64,000 nt of DNA from Nocardioides kribbensis. Lineage in GTDB: Bacteria; Actinomycetota; Actinomycetes; Propionibacteriales; Nocardioidaceae. The stretch spans positions 248,001 through 312,000 of the forward strand of contig NZ_JADCLL010000005.1 of NCBI RefSeq assembly GCF_015070375.1, written 5' to 3'. This document shows positions 44,801 through 60,679 of the stretch, piece after piece. Numbering within the stretch: the stretch's first letter is position 1; the number at the start of each line of letters is the position of its first letter. A program made the position numbers and the translations under genes. A model generated the notes under the pieces. That model did not search any database and was not told the DNA's origin. It saw nothing but the letters and a program-made list of their open reading frames with translations.

Positions 44801-44870
44801 GATGGCCGGCTAAAGGGTCCAGCCGACGGGTTCGGCCGACGGGTCCGGCCGAGGGGTGCGACTGCGCCTC

Positions 44871-45630
44871 GGTCCGGCGGGCCTCGCCGTCCGGAGCGGA
44901 CGGCCGGTCGGGCGAGTGACCCGGGACCGGGAAGTGGCGGCAAACGACAGCCTCGCGGCCCTCCGACCCGTCGTCCGCCGCCACTTCTCGCACCACCGGG
45001 AGGACAGGGGTACGTCGCACCCGGCCGAGCGGACCGCGGGCGCATGGCTCGACGCCGCGGTCCGGCGGGCATCGACGTCCGGACCGGGCCGCCGGTCGGG
45101 CGAGTGACCCGGGACCGGGAAGTGGCGGCGAACGACAGCCCCGCGCCCCTCCGACCCGTCGTCTGCCGCCACTTCTCGCCCCACCGGGAGGACAGGGGTG
45201 CGTCGCACCCGGCCGAGCGGACCGCAGGGGCGTGGCTCGACGCCGCGGTCCGGCGGGCATCGACGTCCGGACCGGGCCGCCGGTCCGGCCAGCGACCCGG
45301 GACCGGGAAGTGGCGGCGAACGACAGCCCCGCGCCCCTCCGACCCGTCGTCTGCCGCCACTTCTCGCCCCACCGGGAGGGCAGGGGTGCGACGTAGCCGG
45401 CCGCGCGGACCGCGGGGGCGTGGCTCGACGCCGAGGTCCGGCGGGCCTCGCCGTCCGGACCGGGACGCCGGTCGGGCCAGCCAGCCAGGACCGAGAAGTG
45501 GCGGCGAACGACAGCCTCGAGGCCCTCCGACCCGTCATTCGCCGCCACTTCTCACCCCACCGGGAGGACAGGAGTAAGCCGTACCCGGCCGAGCGGCCGA
45601 GCGGACCGCGGGCGCATGGCTCGACGCCGC
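44871..45630. repeat. Four tandem 188-bp repeats, each with a large inverted repeat
   Basis: Units start with GGTCCGGCGG at 44871, 45059, 45247 and 45435, exactly 188 bp apart; GAAGTGGCGGC recurs at 44931, 45119, 45307 and 45495. In each unit GAAGTGGCGGC pairs with GCCGCCACTTC about 46 bp later; in the fourth the arms extend to GAGAAGTGGCGGCGAA. The last unit carries an 8-bp duplication (CCGAGCGG). The array fills the space between two convergent genes (44801-45691). Long open frames on both strands are by-products of GC-rich repeat sequence. Confidence 0.92.
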
Positions 45631-45691
45631 GGTCCTCCTCGTCGTGGAGCCCGACGGCTGGCTGGTCGGCTGGCCGGGCCTGGACGCTGGC

Positions 45692-54177: not shown

Positions 54178-56880
54178 TCAGCTCGGGATGGTGTCGCCGG
54201 GGGCGCTGGGCAGGCGCCGCACGAACCAGTCGGAGCGGGCGTCGGCCACCGGGTCGATGCGGGCGTGGCCGGTCAGCACCGAGGCGCCGTGGGGCCCGGC
54301 GAGCACCAGCGGCAGCTCCAGCGAGCTGATCTGCGGGTGGTCGTTCTGCAGCTGGGCCACCCGCCGGATGAGCCACTCGACCTCCCCGATGTCGACCACC
54401 TCGCTGCCGCGGTAGCCGAAGAGCATCGGGGAGGACTTCACCTCGCGCACCATGGCCGCGGCGTCGCGCTCCCCCAGCGGCGGGATCCGGTAGGCCTTGT
54501 CGCCGAGCAGCTCGATGATCGGCCCGGAGATGCCGAAGGAGACCACCGGTCCGAAGAGCGGGTCCTCGATGCTGCGCACGGCCACCGGCACGCCGACCGG
54601 TGAGGTCTTCTGCACCACGAAGCCCGACTCGACGGGGTCGCCGATGAGGGTGGTGAGCGACTGCCAGGCGTCGGCCATCTCGCGCCGGTCGTCGATGTTG
54701 CGCCACACGTGGGAGAGGTCGGGGCGCTCGCGCAGGTGCTCGGCGGTGGCCTTGAGCACGACGTCCCAGCCCAGCTCGTCGGCGGCCGCGGTCGCCTCGT
54801 CCAGGGTGTGCACCGGGTGGGCGGTCCACAGGTCGATGCCGTAGGTCGCCAGCAGCTCGCGCAGGGCCGGGGTCGGCACCTCGAGGCCGTCGGGGTGCTC
54901 GGCGAGCAGCTCGTTGAGCAGGTTGCGCGCACCGATCTGGTCGACGGCGTCGGGGTCCGGCGGCACCCCGTCGGGGGTGCGCAGCCACACGGCGTACTCG
55001 ACGACGTGGGCCAGGGCCCGCACGGCCGCCTCGACGGCGGGGTAGGACGGCACCGAGCCGCGCCCGGCGGTGGAGCCGGCGACGTCGGGCACGCGCAGCA
55101 GCTCGGGCACGCCCTCGACGCCGAGGAAGGTCGAGACGAGCGGCTTGTCGGACTGCTCGCCGATGGCGGCGAGCACGTTGGCGACCTCCTCCCCCGAGAC
55201 GTTGAGCGGGGGGATGTAGACCGCGACGACCGAGTCGACGTCGGGGTCGTCGATGGCGGCGTCGAGGGCGTCCTCGAAGTCGTCGGCGCCGGCCTCGGCG
55301 CCCAGCGCGACCGACTTGTTGACGACCAGGCCGACCGCGGCGGCGGCGTCGGCGGCGAGCAGCCCCAGGGCGTCGGAGTTGCCGACGATGGCCACCCGGC
55401 GCCCGCGCGGCAGCGGCTGGTGGGCCAGCAGCTGCGCGACGTCGAACATCTCCTCCAGCGCGTCGACCTGGATCACCCCGGCCTGCCGGAACATCGCGTC
55501 GACGGCCTGCGGGGGCGCGGCGATCTTGCGCACGGCGTGGCCCATCGGCACGCCCTGGGTGGTGCGGCCCGAGCGCACGGCCACGATCGGCTTGCGCAGC
55601 GAGACCCGGCGGGCGATGCGGGAGAACTTGCGCGGGTTGCCGATGGACTCCAGGTACATCATCACGACCTCGGTGGACTCGTCCTCCTCCCAGTACTGCA
55701 GGAGGTCGTTGCCCGAGACGTCGGCGCGGTTGCCCGCGCTGACGAAGGTCGACAGGCCCAGGCCGCGGTTCTGCACCTTCTCCAGGATGGCCGAGCCGAG
55801 CGCACCGGACTGGCAGAAGAAGCCCGCGCGACCGCGCGGCGGCATCACCGAGGACAGCGAGGCGTTGACCGAGACCGCCGGGTCGGTGTTGATGACGCCC
55901 AGGCAGTTGGGGCCGATGAGGCGCAGGCCGTAGGAGCGCGAGAGCCCCACCAGGCGACGCTGGCGCTGGCGGCCCTCCTCGCCGGTCTCGGCGAAGCCCG
56001 AGGAGATGACCACGAGCCCGTGCACGCCCTTGGCCGCGCAGTCGAGCACGACGTCCTGCACCGCGTCGGCCGGCACGGCCACGATGGCCACGTCGACGTC
56101 GTCGGGGATGTCGGAGACCGACTTGTAGGCCGGCAGCCCCGACACCGCGCCGGCGGTGGGGTTGACGGCGTAGACGCGCCCGGTGAAGTCGCCATTGACG
56201 AGGTTGCGCACCAGGGTCTGGCCGATCGTGTCCTGGCGGCGGCTGGCCCCGACGATGGCCACGGAGCGGGGGTTGAAGAAGCGCTCGATCGACGCGGCCT
56301 CGGCGCGGTGCTCGCGCCCGTGCATCACGCCGACCGCGGTGTCGGTGGGCGCGATGGGGAACTCCAGCTGCAGCACGCCGTCCTCGTACTCGCTGGCCAC
56401 GCGGTAGCCGGCGTCGCGGAAGGTCTGGATCATGCGGCTGTTGTCGGGGAGGATCTCGGCGACGAACTTCTCCAGCCCGCGCTCGCGCCCGGCCTGGGCC
56501 AGGTGCTCGAGCAGCAGCTGCGCGATGCCGCGGCCCTGGTGGGCGTCCTCGACGAGAAAGGCGACCTCGGCCTCCCCCGGGCGCACCAGGTCGTAGCGGC
56601 CCACGGCGATCATCCGCTGCTGGAGCAGCAGCACGAAGGCGACGCGGTCCTGGTGGTCGACCCGGGTGAAGCGCTCCACGTCGCGCGGCGAGAGCTGCGG
56701 CATCGGGGAGAAGAACCGGTAGTACTTCGACTGGTCGGAGACCCGGGAGTAGAACTCCACCAGCAGCTCGGCGTCGTCGGGCGTGATAGGCCGGATGTGG
56801 GCCGATCGGCCGTCGCGCAGCAGGACGTCGGCCTCCCAGTGCCGCGGGGGTGCGGGGATCGGTGCCGAGGAGGTGTCCAC
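54178..56880 (-). CDS. GNAT acetyltransferase fused to acyl-CoA synthetase (NDP-forming) domains
   Basis: 900 residues. The N-terminal GNAT domain (about 20-180) has VAFLVEDAHQGRGIAQLLLE. It is followed by a CoA-binding Rossmann domain (FFNPRSVAIVGASRRQDTIG), the succinyl-CoA-ligase-like domains (FFCQSGALGSAI; GHAVRKIA) and a C-terminal ATP-grasp domain (about 680-900; GWDVVLKAT). This is the Pat-type protein-lysine acetyltransferase layout with GNAT in front. The family often controls acetyl-CoA synthetase by acetylation. GTG 56880; an in-frame extension upstream runs through repeats and was rejected. Confidence 0.88.
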   Translation of the reverse strand: MDTSSAPIPAPPRHWEADVLLRDGRSAHIRPITPDDAELLVEFYSRVSDQSKYYRFFSPMPQLSPRDVERFTRVDHQDRVAFVLLLQQRMIAVGRYDLVRPGEAEVAFLVEDAHQGRGIAQLLLEHLAQAGRERGLEKFVAEILPDNSRMIQTFRDAGYRVASEYEDGVLQLEFPIAPTDTAVGVMHGREHRAEAASIERFFNPRSVAIVGASRRQDTIGQTLVRNLVNGDFTGRVYAVNPTAGAVSGLPAYKSVSDIPDDVDVAIVAVPADAVQDVVLDCAAKGVHGLVVISSGFAETGEEGRQRQRRLVGLSRSYGLRLIGPNCLGVINTDPAVSVNASLSSVMPPRGRAGFFCQSGALGSAILEKVQNRGLGLSTFVSAGNRADVSGNDLLQYWEEDESTEVVMMYLESIGNPRKFSRIARRVSLRKPIVAVRSGRTTQGVPMGHAVRKIAAPPQAVDAMFRQAGVIQVDALEEMFDVAQLLAHQPLPRGRRVAIVGNSDALGLLAADAAAAVGLVVNKSVALGAEAGADDFEDALDAAIDDPDVDSVVAVYIPPLNVSGEEVANVLAAIGEQSDKPLVSTFLGVEGVPELLRVPDVAGSTAGRGSVPSYPAVEAAVRALAHVVEYAVWLRTPDGVPPDPDAVDQIGARNLLNELLAEHPDGLEVPTPALRELLATYGIDLWTAHPVHTLDEATAAADELGWDVVLKATAEHLRERPDLSHVWRNIDDRREMADAWQSLTTLIGDPVESGFVVQKTSPVGVPVAVRSIEDPLFGPVVSFGISGPIIELLGDKAYRIPPLGERDAAAMVREVKSSPMLFGYRGSEVVDIGEVEWLIRRVAQLQNDHPQISSLELPLVLAGPHGASVLTGHARIDPVADARSDWFVRRLPSAPGDTIPS

Positions 56881-56911
56881 GCCCCGAAATCTACCGGGTC
56901 CCGCCTCCCCC

Positions 56912-57363
56912 GGTGGTTGAGGAGGGAGCGCCAGCGACCGTCTCGAAACCACCCCCGACCACGGTGGTTGAGGAGGGAGCGCCAGCGACCGTCTCGAAAC
57001 CACCCCCGACCACGGTGGTCGAGGAGGGAGCGCCAGCGACCGTCTCGAAACCACCACCCGACCACGGTGGTTGAGGAGGGAGCGCCAGCGACCGTCTCGA
57101 AACCACCCCCGACCACGGTCATCGAGCAGGGAGCGCCAGCGACCGTCTCGAAACCACCCCCGACCACGGTGATTGAGGAGGGAGCGCCAGCGACCGTCTC
57201 GAAACCACCCCCGACCACGGTGGTTGAGGAGGGAGCGCCAGCGACCGTCTCGACACCACCCCCCGACCACGGTGGTTGAGGAGGGAGCGCCAGCGACCGT
57301 CTCGACACCACCCCCCGACCACGGTGGTTGAGGAGGGAGCGCCAGCGACCGTCTCGAAACCGC
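56912..57363 (+). repeat. Array of nine 51-52-bp palindromic repeats, orientation A
   Basis: Units start at 56913, 56964, 57015, 57067, 57118, 57169, 57220, 57272 and 57324. Each has end arms GGTGGTT and AACCACC around GAGGAGGGAGCGCCAGCG and ACCGTCTCG, separated by a CCCGACCAC-type linker. Only scattered substitutions distinguish the units. The array lies between the start of the GNAT/synthetase gene and the stop of the GIY-YIG gene. Confidence 0.93.
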
Positions 57364-57372
57364 CCTCGTCAC

Positions 57373-57657
57373 TCACCCGCGACGCGCACGGCTCGCCAGC
57401 TGCGGCAGCAGCTCGAACTCGCCCCTGATGAGTGCCTCGCGCTTCGCGCGGCGCCACCCTTGAATCTGCTTCTCGTATCGGAACGCCTCCTCGATCGAGG
57501 CGTACTGCGCCGACCAGACGAGCCGCACCGGCCGTCGGCGCCGTGTGTAGGCCGCACCGACCCCTGCGTCGTGCTCACCGACGCGGCGCTCGAGGTCGAC
57601 GGTGCTGCCGACGTAGAGGGAACCGTCGGCGCACTCCAGGATGTAGGTCCAGCCCAT
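57373..57657 (-). CDS. GIY-YIG nuclease-domain protein
   Basis: 94 residues, a stand-alone GIY-YIG domain like YhbQ/UPF0213. GWTYIL and LYVGST are the GIY and YIG strands (Tyr5, Tyr15). The catalytic Arg is Arg24 or Arg25 in DLERRV, and the metal Glu is Glu62 in FRYEKQIQGW. RRAKREALI follows. All catalytic residues are present. Arrays of palindromic repeats in opposite orientation lie within 10 bp of its stop and 70 bp of its start. The nuclease may act on, copy or be carried with these repeats (inference). The start ATG 57657 has GAAGG upstream. Confidence 0.9.
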   Translation of the reverse strand: MGWTYILECADGSLYVGSTVDLERRVGEHDAGVGAAYTRRRRPVRLVWSAQYASIEEAFRYEKQIQGWRRAKREALIRGEFELLPQLASRARRG

Positions 57658-57726
57658 GGCTCGACCTTCGTTCAGACTCGGGACGCCGACAACCGCCTCG
57701 GGGCGCGCCTGTGGAGAACCGTGGCC

Positions 57727-58060
57727 GTGGTTTCGAGACGCTCGCCAGGGCTCGCTCCTCAACCACCGGGGCGGCGATCGTGGTTTCGAGACGCTCGCCA
57801 GGGCTCGCTCCTCAACCACCGGCGCGGCGATCGTGGTTTCGAGACGCTCGCCAGGGCTCGCTCCTCAACCACCAGCGCGGCAATCGTGGTTTCGAGACGC
57901 TCGCCAGGGCTCGCTCCTCAACCACCGGCGCGGCAATCGTGGTTTCGAGACGCTCGCCAGGGCTCGCTCCTCAACCACCGGGCGGCAGTCGTGGTTTCGA
58001 GACGCTCGCTGGCGCTCGCTCCTCAACCACCGGTGACGGGCCCGCTCCTCGACCACCGGG
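57727..58060 (-). repeat. Array of six and a half 52-53-bp palindromic repeats, orientation B
   Basis: Units start with GTGGTTTCGAGACGCTCG at 57727, 57780, 57833, 57886, 57939 and 57991; a partial unit ends at about 58060. They are the reverse complement of array A with a few shared substitutions (CGCCAGGGC in the middle). The sixth unit keeps the CGCTGGCGC middle and is closest to array A. The array is directly upstream of the topoisomerase gene. Confidence 0.93.
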
Positions 58061-58117: not shown

Positions 58118-60679
58118 ATGGCCAGGCGTACCGCTCCTCCCCCGCCCTCCGACGACTTCGAGGAGCACATCCTCGACATCGACGTCGGCGACGAGATGCG
58201 CAGCAGCTTCTTGGAGTACGCCTACTCCGTCATCTACTCCCGCGCGCTGCCCGACGCCCGCGACGGCCTCAAGCCGGTGCAGCGCCGGATCCTCTACACG
58301 ATGAACGACATGGGCCTGCGCCCCGACCGCGGCCACGTCAAGAGCGCCCGCGTCGTGGGCGAGGTCATGGGCCGGCTGCACCCGCACGGCGACAGCGCCA
58401 TCTACGACGCGCTGGTGCGCATGACCCAGCCGTGGTCGATGCGCGTGCCGACCGTCGACGGGCACGGCAACTTCGGCTCGCCCGACGACTCCCCCGCCGC
58501 CATGCGCTACACCGAGTGCCGGATGGCTTCGGCCGCAGTGGCGATGACGGCGAGCATCGACGAGGACACCGTCGACTTCCGGCCCAACTACGACAGCCGC
58601 GAGATGGAGCCGTCGGTGCTGCCGGCGGCGATCCCGCACCTCGTGGTCAACGGCACCACCGGCATCGCGGTCGGCATGGCCACCAACTGCGCCCCGCACA
58701 ACCTGGTCGAGGTCGTGCAGGCGCTGCGCCACCTCATCACCCACCCCCAGGCCGGCGTCGACGACCTGATGCGCTTCGTGCCCGGCCCCGACCTGCCCAC
58801 CGGCGGCAAGATCGTGGGTCTCGACGGGGTCCGCGACGCCTACGAGACCGGGCGCGGCACCTTCAAGATGCGCGCGACGGCTCGCATCGAGACCATCGGG
58901 CGCCGCAAGGGGATCGTGGTCACCGAGCTGCCCTACGGCGTGGGCACCGAGAAGGTCGTCGAGCGGATCAAGGTGCTCGTGCAGGGCAAGAAGCTGCAGG
59001 GCATCTCCGACATCAAGGACCTCACCGACCGCGACAACGGCCTGCGCCTGGTGATCGAGGTCAAGAACGGCTTCCACCCCGAGGCGCTGCTCGAGCAGCT
59101 CTACAAGATGACGCCGATGGAGGACAGCTTCGGCATCAACAACGTGGCGCTCGTCGACGGGCAGCCCCGCACGCTCGGCCTCAAGCAGATGCTCGAGGTC
59201 TTCCTCGCCCACCGCTACGAGGTCGTGCGGCGCCGCTCGCAGTTCCGTCGCAACAAGAAGGCCGAGCGGCTGCACCTGGTCGAGGGCCTCCTCGTGGCCC
59301 TGCTCGACATCGACGAGGTCATCCAGGTCATCCGCACCAGCGACGACACCGCCGCCGCGCGGGCCCGGCTCATGGAGGTCTTCGACCTCAGCCTGGCCCA
59401 GACCGACTACATCCTCGAGATGCAGCTGCGCCGGCTCACCCGCTTCAGCCGCATCGAGCTGGAGAAGGAGAGCGAGGAGCTGCGCCGCGAGATCGAGGAC
59501 CTCGACGCGATCCTCGGCGACGAGGCCATGCTGCGCCGCGTCGTCTCCGAGGAGCTGGCGGAGGTGGCCACGACCTACGGCACCCCGCGCCGCACCGTGC
59601 TGCTGGAGTCGGCGGGCACGACCGTCACCGCCGCGAGCGTGCCGCTGGAGGTCGCCGACGACCCCTGCTTCGCCTTCCTGTCCTCCAGCGGCCTGCTGGC
59701 CCGCTCGAGCAACGCCGAGCCCCCGGGCGTGGGCGGCGGGCGCACCAACCACGACGTCGTGGTCTCGGCCGTGGCCACCAGCGCCCGCGGCGAGGTCGGC
59801 GTGCTGACCTCGCGGGGCCGGCTGCTGCGCCTGGGCGTGCTCGACCTGCCGGTGATCCCGGCCTCGGCCAACGACCCCAACCTCCAGGGCGGCCTGCCGG
59901 TGAGCGAGATGCTCCAGCTCGCCTCCGGCGAGCGGCCCCTCGCGCTGTGCACCCTGGCCACCGACGGCCCGGGGCTCGCCCTCGGCACCCGCCAGGGCGT
60001 GGTCAAGCGGGTCAACCCCGAGGTGCTCAACCGCGACGAGTGGGACGTCGTGCGGCTCGCCGACGGCGACGAGGTCGTCGGGGCCGCCGAGCTCGCCACC
60101 GGCGAGGAGACGCTCTGCTTCGTCAGCACCGACGCCCAGCTGCTCCACTTCCCCGCCGAGGCGGTGCGGCCCCAGGGCCGCACCGGCGGGGGTATCGCGG
60201 GCATCCGGCTGACCCCGGGGCAGACGGTCGCGTGGTTCGGGGTGGTCGACCCCGCGGCGCCCGAGGGCTCCGTGGTGGTCACCGCGTCGGGCTCCTCCAC
60301 GGCGCTGCCGGGCACCGAGCCCGGCTCGGTCAAGGTCGCGCCGTTCACCGAGTTCCCGACGAAGGGCCGCGCCACCGGCGGCGTGCGCTGCCACCGCTTC
60401 CTCAAGGGCGAGGACACCCTCGTGCTCGCCTGGGCCGGCACGGCCCCCGCCCGCGCCGCCGCGGCCAGCGGCGCCCCGGTCGACCTGCCCGAGGCCACTG
60501 GTCGCCGCGACGGCTCCGGGGTGCCGGTGGCCCAGCCGGTGGCGGCCGTGGCGGGCCCGGTCGGTGCGCGGGTCGCCCCGGCGGACGCCTCGACCGGTCG
60601 CGGGACGGACGGGCCGAGGGGCGGCGCCGACGACGGCGCGGGAGTCGGGCCGTCGGCTCCCGACGGTGTGGAAGGCTGA
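58118..60679 (+). CDS. Type IIA topoisomerase subunit A (ParC/GyrA-like)
   Basis: 853 residues. The DNA-cleaving Tyr131 is in AMRYTECRM. The quinolone region [14 protein letters not shown] has Ser93 and Asp97, the sensitive state. The C-terminal half is a beta-pinwheel of RGRLLRL- and RQGVVKRV-like blades. I find no Q(R/K)RGG(R/K)G GyrA box, so a topoisomerase IV-like role besides gyrase is likely. The last 80 residues are disordered. ATG 58118 follows GACAAT. Confidence 0.9.

Follow-up and report, generated by a model that had tools for sequence, protein, structure and literature searches.

A GIY-YIG nuclease gene bracketed by arrays of hairpin repeats in Nocardioides

A gene for a small GIY-YIG nuclease, enclosed by two arrays of one palindromic repeat that face in opposite directions, raises the question of whether the enzyme and the repeat form a functional pair and, if so, what kind of pair this would be. 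We consider this question for a window of 64,000 nucleotides, the whole stretch of DNA that was analysed, from Nocardioides kribbensis, whose genome measures 4.1 Mb.

The locus, its protein and its insertion site

In the window locus, the intact nuclease gene lies between nine direct and six inverted repeat units. Array 1 (56911..57365, + strand) consists of nine units of ~51 bp with the core GGTTGAGGAGGGAGCGCCAGCGACCGTCTCGAAACC, as delimited by TRF (8.9 copies, 95% matches) and a repeat search. It is followed by the gene for a UPF0213-like GIY-YIG protein of 94 aa (57373..57657, - strand; ATG at 57657, stop codon at 57373-57375), which matches Pfam PF01541 with an E-value of 2.5e-18. Array 2 (57726..58033, - strand; TRF 5.8 copies, repeat search) holds six units of 53 bp with the core GGTTGAGGAGCGAGCCCTGGCGAGCGTCTCGAAACC, the last of which has the interior CGCCAGCG, and a half unit of the same repeat family, recognised by reading the sequence and by the repeat search, lies at its outer end (58040..58058, - strand). 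Coordinates, TRF copy numbers and inversion all agree with the initial annotation, which had described a nuclease gene enclosed by opposed palindromic arrays.

The two arrays, mutually inverted in the repeat search, are separated by fixed changes and yet are members of a single repeat family. Such fixed substitutions had been noted earlier, and one of them proves to be a compensated swap within the hairpin, with GGGAGC/GCGACC in array 1 and GCGAGC/GCGAGC in array 2. With up to three mismatches, the repeat pattern occurs at 48 places in its own genome, and the reversed-pattern control at none. A variant with a CCTG loop accounts for five of these 48 places, every one of them in array 2; therefore, the array copies likely arose by local tandem duplication. 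The window also contains a second tandem array (44865-45635), with a 188-bp unit in 4.1 copies by TRF.

The Pfam match, made on the longer frame that holds the ORF, covers profile positions 1-75 of 78, and residues Y5, Y15, R25, H29 and E62, which by I-TevI we take to be the catalytic positions, are conserved in 98-99 of 99 homologues from the genus, bearing out the earlier description of a complete 94-residue domain with its catalytic residues. An AlphaFold2 model of the protein has a mean pLDDT of 91.1, and the nearest solved structures in a Foldseek search are 1zg2 and 1ywl, both UPF0213 proteins. It is the one small GIY-YIG gene of the host genome, the frames with the other two PF01541 matches measuring 692 and 825 aa. 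Among named genomes, seven relatives of the gene were found, five of them, with all the closest ones, in Nocardioides. A homologous protein is present in 33 of 296 genomes sampled across the phylum; the repeat was examined within the genus. Up to an E-value of 1, no PADLOC model gave a match. Carriage by phages was considered and set aside after a single scan of viral contigs, whose 44 candidate stretches held no relative.

Nuclease and repeats together form a unit of ~1.1 kb in the gap between two divergent genes, a GNAT/CoA-ligase gene on one flank of the insertion site (54178..56880, - strand; Pfam) and a DNA topoisomerase gene of the gyrA/parC type on the other (58118..60679, + strand; Pfam, NCBIfam). 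This gap spans 1237 bp in the window. In 25 of 29 other genomes, these being the 30 best loci of the parC-like gene less that of the window, it spans ~66-184 bp, with a median of 101. One of the 25 gaps (L265) is overstated by ~50 bp, as its contig begins early, which leaves the range unaffected. Of the remaining four genomes, one has the ligase ~1 kb away and three have none in reach. The nuclease is absent from the ligase/parC-like locus in all 29, and a single one of the 25 relatives (L257) carries a solitary hairpin, of the T type described below, in the same gene gap. Where the relatives have a short locus, the window has the whole unit, and the simplest reading of these sequences is that the unit would have come in whole, bounded by its repeats. 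Across the genus, the 101 nuclease loci fall into 83 gene neighbourhoods when loci sharing at least two neighbours are joined. At two of them (L090 and L166), the nuclease again has a relative of the window's ligase-side neighbour beside it, there on the upstream side of the nuclease gene; this neighbour is perhaps a preferred landing place.

Linkage of repeat and nuclease across the genus

Our sample of the genus comprised 118 genomes, 71 of which had a protein match (up to five per genome, 114 match rows). The locus set combines the window with 100 rows that have ~8 kb per side where the contig allows, that is, 101 of the 114 rows; the 13 rows outside the locus counts are two at contig ends and otherwise fragments. 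A search with the strict form of the repeat, T[TC]GAG-N-AG...TCGA[AG]ACC, finds a unit near only 46 of the 101 loci. The pattern used for the counts retains the foot alone, GTYGAG...CGARAC, that is, GTTGAG...CGAAAC or GTCGAG...CGAGAC with a spacer of 3-40. It is a post hoc choice, made after the flanks had been read and other middle modules seen, and distant slabs, a reversed motif and a control gene serve as guards on it.

By this measure, the link of repeat and nuclease is general across the genus: 98 of the 101 homologues have a foot hairpin no farther than 500 bp away (upstream of 95, downstream of 91), whereas control slabs of 500 bp, taken at distances of 1-6.5 kb, hold one on a given side at 3-12 of 101 loci. 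The regular association and enrichment that the initial annotation had conjectured for GIY-YIG genes are thus found. The motif with reversed arms occurs within 500 bp of the nuclease at none of the 101 loci. Up to 200 bp from the match, there are 7.6-11.3 hairpins per kb; farther out than 1 kb, the density falls to 0.16-0.34 per kb. In none of the 29 other genomes does a foot occur in the 500 bp upstream of the parC-like control gene, and extending the stretch to 1400 bp gives a foot in two of the 29. The nearest upstream hairpin is oriented with the gene in 75 of 95 loci, and the nearest downstream one points the other way in 61 of 91. Two of the three loci missed by the foot pattern (L146, L148) have compensated feet by eye, and the third (L155) lies beside masked bases.

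A further shared element precedes the gene itself. In the window, a TCCACAG box stands ~57 nt 5' of the nuclease start codon (57709..57715, - strand; motif count in homologues), and the same box is found 50-64 nt upstream of the start of 68 of the 101 nuclease genes, the window included, with CTGTGG in 12 others; the background of CCACAG is 0.026 per 120 nt. We take the box to resemble a DnaA box (TTGTCCACA). Six loci that lack it (L137, L138, L143, L145, L151 and L156) have in common [CT]TGTCGGTG ~30 nt before the nuclease start, a motif that resembles the RecA-independent DNA-damage promoter of actinobacteria.

The association extends to the repeat load of whole genomes, counted in those with a completeness of 90% or more and a contamination of 5% or less. 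The median number of GGTTGAG...CGAAACC places is 23 in the 71 genomes that have a nuclease match and 2 in the 38 that lack one; for GGTCGAG...CGAGACC, a pattern that has a background in coding-looking stretches, the medians are 133 and 70. Equal abundance of the repeats in strains without the nuclease had been named at the outset as an argument against a pairing; they are in fact rarer there, though orphan repeats exist, and several genomes (e.g., G006, G008, G040, G062, G101 and G108) have many repeats despite no detected nuclease. In four genomes (G003, G019, G022 and G113), frameshifted remnants of the nuclease still adjoin hairpins, and therefore the repeats can outlive their nuclease.

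Covarying hairpins and matching types of enzyme and repeat

The foot common to the repeats reads 5'-GGTYGAG on one arm and 5'-CGARACC on the other. Judged from the sequence, its two GA steps can lie opposite one another and form a tandem G.A mismatch; DNA folding places a GA bulge in the foot instead of this tandem pairing. Of six hairpins folded, two, the array 2 unit being one of them, do no better than a fair share of shuffled sequences (50 and 13 of 200). Across loci, the hairpin arms covary. The fourth pair of the foot, left free in the search pattern, is Watson-Crick in 94 of 104 locus-types. The base that follows the foot, here called N, pairs across a bulged T with a base N' of the other arm, and this pair is Watson-Crick in 100 of 134 locus-types where 47 are expected; 2000 shuffles gave at most 65 of 134, and other offsets score far lower. 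A stricter set raises this to 91 of 93 (T-A 43, G-C 32, C-G 16). The inner stem is variable in sequence but paired, its first five positions being all paired in 43 of 88 distinct segments and in 3.9% with shuffled partners.

The identity of N follows the enzyme. When the nuclease tree is inferred from sequences minus their C-terminal tails, N, which may be G, C or T, needs 16 changes along it, versus 42.8 when shuffled. The tail itself, which comes after an LPxL[AS] motif and reads ...ASRARRG in the window protein (57376..57396, - strand), tracks N as well: column statistics and the tails sorted by type show that its R90 column follows the hairpin base adjoining the GAG foot. This column holds K in 20 of 20 nucleases with N = T and R in 41 of 41 with N = G. 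With N = C, it holds G, S or T in 12 of 35 and R in 7 of 35, so that R is not exclusive to the G type; the other 16 of 35 show a gap, in part where the alignment breaks off.

Expressed as a motif, the tail and N = T agreed in 95 of 96 loci of an earlier set, from which L148 is absent for want of a repeat type and four loci (L132, L146, L155 and L160) for want of the cutting motif. With the motif widened to K-x-F so that one locus (L163) fits, and with 12 Bacteroidota loci, typed by eye, and two loci of other genera, of the same family and the same class, the agreement is 109 of 110 rows, spanning two phyla and typed partly by eye. The sole exception (L172) has the K and lacks the F. The typing of Bacteroidota by eye covers 12 of 30 loci, the rest being without a clear type or not judged. 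Five homologues among them (L040, which equals L210, and L217, L218, L220 and L233) are flanked, by eye, by GAGT...TATCGA hairpins and have K-x-F tails, and two others (L226, L228) are G-typed without the R. The L040 copy itself has a stop right before ILLC, at a spot where its relatives have Tyr. Part of the agreement between tail and base could be shared ancestry: there are two phylogenetically independent pairs on well-supported branches, and five and eight on all branches in the two data sets, and because just two are well supported, a sign test is unable to reach 0.05.

Repeat types also match nuclease types at the level of genomes. The T group is defined by the tail motif and the GT/CCT group by the flanking repeat itself, and therefore the counts were redone minus copies within 1 kb of the genes. 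After this removal, at least two T-type repeats remain in 18 of the 19 genomes that encode a [KR]K-x-F nuclease, in 6 of the 50 whose nuclease is of another kind and in 8 of the 49 that lack a full nuclease; for GT/CCT repeats, the corresponding counts are 17 of 18, 14 of 51 and 14 of 49. The class without a full nuclease includes two genomes with remnants only (G005, G019) as well as incomplete genomes. With the gene-near copies kept, the matching genomes stand at 19 of 19 for the T type and 17 of 18 for the GT/CCT type. In four mismatched genomes (G010, G079, G093 and G116), no nuclease was found to match a repeat type that is present in 58, 103, 63 and 59 copies, respectively. The genome of the window has no repeats of the T and GT/CCT types alongside the 48 places of its own, and another (G098) has five nucleases with flanks of several different types. 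In one genome (G099), T-type hairpins, by inspection of the listed positions, often appear as inverted pairs ~50 bp apart; inverted pairs of hairpins are the form that REPINs take.

From these sequence patterns, we put forward, at even balance between belief and doubt, the proposal that the tail would act as a swappable reader of one hairpin base pair, with K-x-F reading T-A, R in that column accompanying G-C and other tails C-G. Such a rule would be common to Actinomycetota and Bacteroidota and would allow a bacterium to keep several pairs that do not cross-react, each spreading as a bracketed unit. If the rule is right, a few residues would program the target choice of a hairpin-specific nuclease, yielding a short recognition code for hairpins of use for tools, and it would explain how several families of dispersed palindromes coexist in one bacterium. 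The matched natural variants amount to a ready experiment on target choice by a minimal nuclease of ~95 aa. What had appeared to be an isolated oddity becomes a genus-wide, controlled partnership of nuclease and hairpin with many such variants. Among the titles listed in a literature search, none linked a GIY-YIG nuclease with dispersed repeats; the rule relating tail and base, and the insertion of the unit as seen in the genus, may be new.

Possible roles and known systems

We consider it probable, on comparative sequence grounds, that the pair is of the Ssn kind, namely a site-specific, single-strand GIY-YIG nuclease with a cognate multicopy hairpin. The small enzyme would recognise its own hairpin, most likely in single-stranded DNA as it occurs on the lagging strand, in DNA taken up or in repair gaps, reading the foot GGTYGAG/CGARACC together with the adjoining base pair and cutting there. 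The gene and the cognate copies bracketing it would move as one unit, and solitary copies and tandem arrays elsewhere would be products of spread and local duplication. Single-strand cutting, the position of the cut and any effect on DNA uptake, recombination or spread are predictions of this model. Against it stand most of the 31 loci outside the genus, which, like E. coli yhbQ, are without a clear bracketing palindrome by the inverted-match measure, and the repeat-rich genomes without a detected or matching nuclease.

Those same orphan repeats, together with decayed nucleases still beside repeats, the 83 neighbourhoods among 101 loci and the whole unit at a locus short in relatives, would also be expected of a selfish mobile system, which we regard as possible, if less than probable. 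There, a homing or REP/RAYT-like nuclease would cut hairpins of one strand, and repair templated by the copy with the nuclease would spread the repeats or the gene, the repeats being both target and homology arms. The inverted repeat pairs noticed in G099 by inspection and the solitary hairpin in the gene gap of L257 fit such a course; the short gaps of the other relatives are without a foot, the cognate sites of the donor stay intact, unlike in classical homing, and horizontal transfer with ordinary recombination could account for the diversity of neighbourhoods. Moreover, GIY-YIG enzymes have no known strand-transfer (DNA-joining) activity. A barrier that shapes DNA uptake, with single-stranded DNA being cut on entry if it bears the cognate repeat, is as much a role within the Ssn-kind reading as a rival to it, and we think it rather unlikely: Ssn is said to affect natural transformation in Neisseria and the viral-contig scan found no relative, but PADLOC gave no match, dozens of repeat copies lie in the host's own chromosome and we know of no natural transformation in this host. 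The repeats do form hairpins, and the unit does lie between divergent genes here, as might be expected of terminators or mRNA stabilisers acting at the RNA level, with the nuclease gene merely placed in a repeat-rich intergenic stretch; the linkage at 98 of 101 loci versus 3-12 of 101 per side in slabs and none of 29 at the control gene, the matching of enzyme and repeat types, and arrays that face both ways make this highly improbable.

Returning to the pairing of a GIY-YIG nuclease with its own hairpin, several known systems invite comparison. GIY-YIG homing endonucleases (I-TevI and kin) share the catalytic fold, and differ in that here target-like sites are intact on both sides of a free-standing gene. 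A homing endonuclease was rejected as a candidate, the gene lying between intact repeat units and interrupting no target site of its own; the NCBIfam model of group I intron endonucleases gives 17.3 bits, its cut-off being 56.05. To REP/REPIN elements and their RAYT enzymes, to which the initial annotation had likened the locus, the resemblance holds for the hairpin repeats, the enzyme gene flanked by inverted repeats, the dispersed and orphan copies and the changing position in the genome. It does not extend to membership: RAYTs are HUH (Y1) enzymes, and the enclosed gene matches PF01541 only, with no HUH gene present.

The UPF0213 proteins 1zg2 (BH0048) and 1ywl (EF2693) are like the window nuclease in sequence and fold. 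E. coli YhbQ is alike in sequence (tblastn, 32% over residues 3-89), but a bracketing palindrome was looked for at its gene and not found. Linkage on the scale of the phylum was not borne out: among the 31 loci outside the genus, six (L171, L172, L189, L192, L193 and L196) have an exact inverted flank match of at least 16 nt in an uncontrolled count. Four of these distant homologues (L189, L192, L193 and L196) are bracketed by palindromes such as TTGTCATTCTGAGCGAAGCGAAGAATCTAGA, presumably a widespread repeat type, which suggests that other dispersed palindromes may also belong to GIY-YIG partners.

The closest counterparts are the Ssn proteins, GIY-YIG enzymes whose reported substrate is single-stranded DNA, cleaved at a multicopy sequence that is cognate to the enzyme. 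In Neisseria, this repeat is said to be the NTS and Ssn to modulate natural transformation, and Ssn homologues reportedly have each their own repeat. With the window protein as query, tblastn finds a homologue in Neisseria gonorrhoeae (35% over residues 5-77, 73 residues; E 2e-5), which we take to be ssn itself and which has copies of CCGTCATTCCCGCGCAGGCGGGAATC on both sides within 350 bp. Given this palindrome-bracketed homologue and the Ssn family, a system of the same kind, the earlier suggestion of an undescribed nuclease-repeat system gives way, and we file the window nuclease and its repeat as a likely member of the Ssn kind. The pair differs in its foot, which is GAG...CGA and not ATTCCC...GGGAAT, and in its large tandem arrays and up to five homologues per genome. 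It shares with Ssn a protein of ~100 aa with the catalytic residues kept, homology to the Neisseria protein, homologues that each have their own repeat, and a gene that is bracketed by, in a genome that is seeded with, the cognate palindrome (98 of 101 loci, 48 places, matching types).
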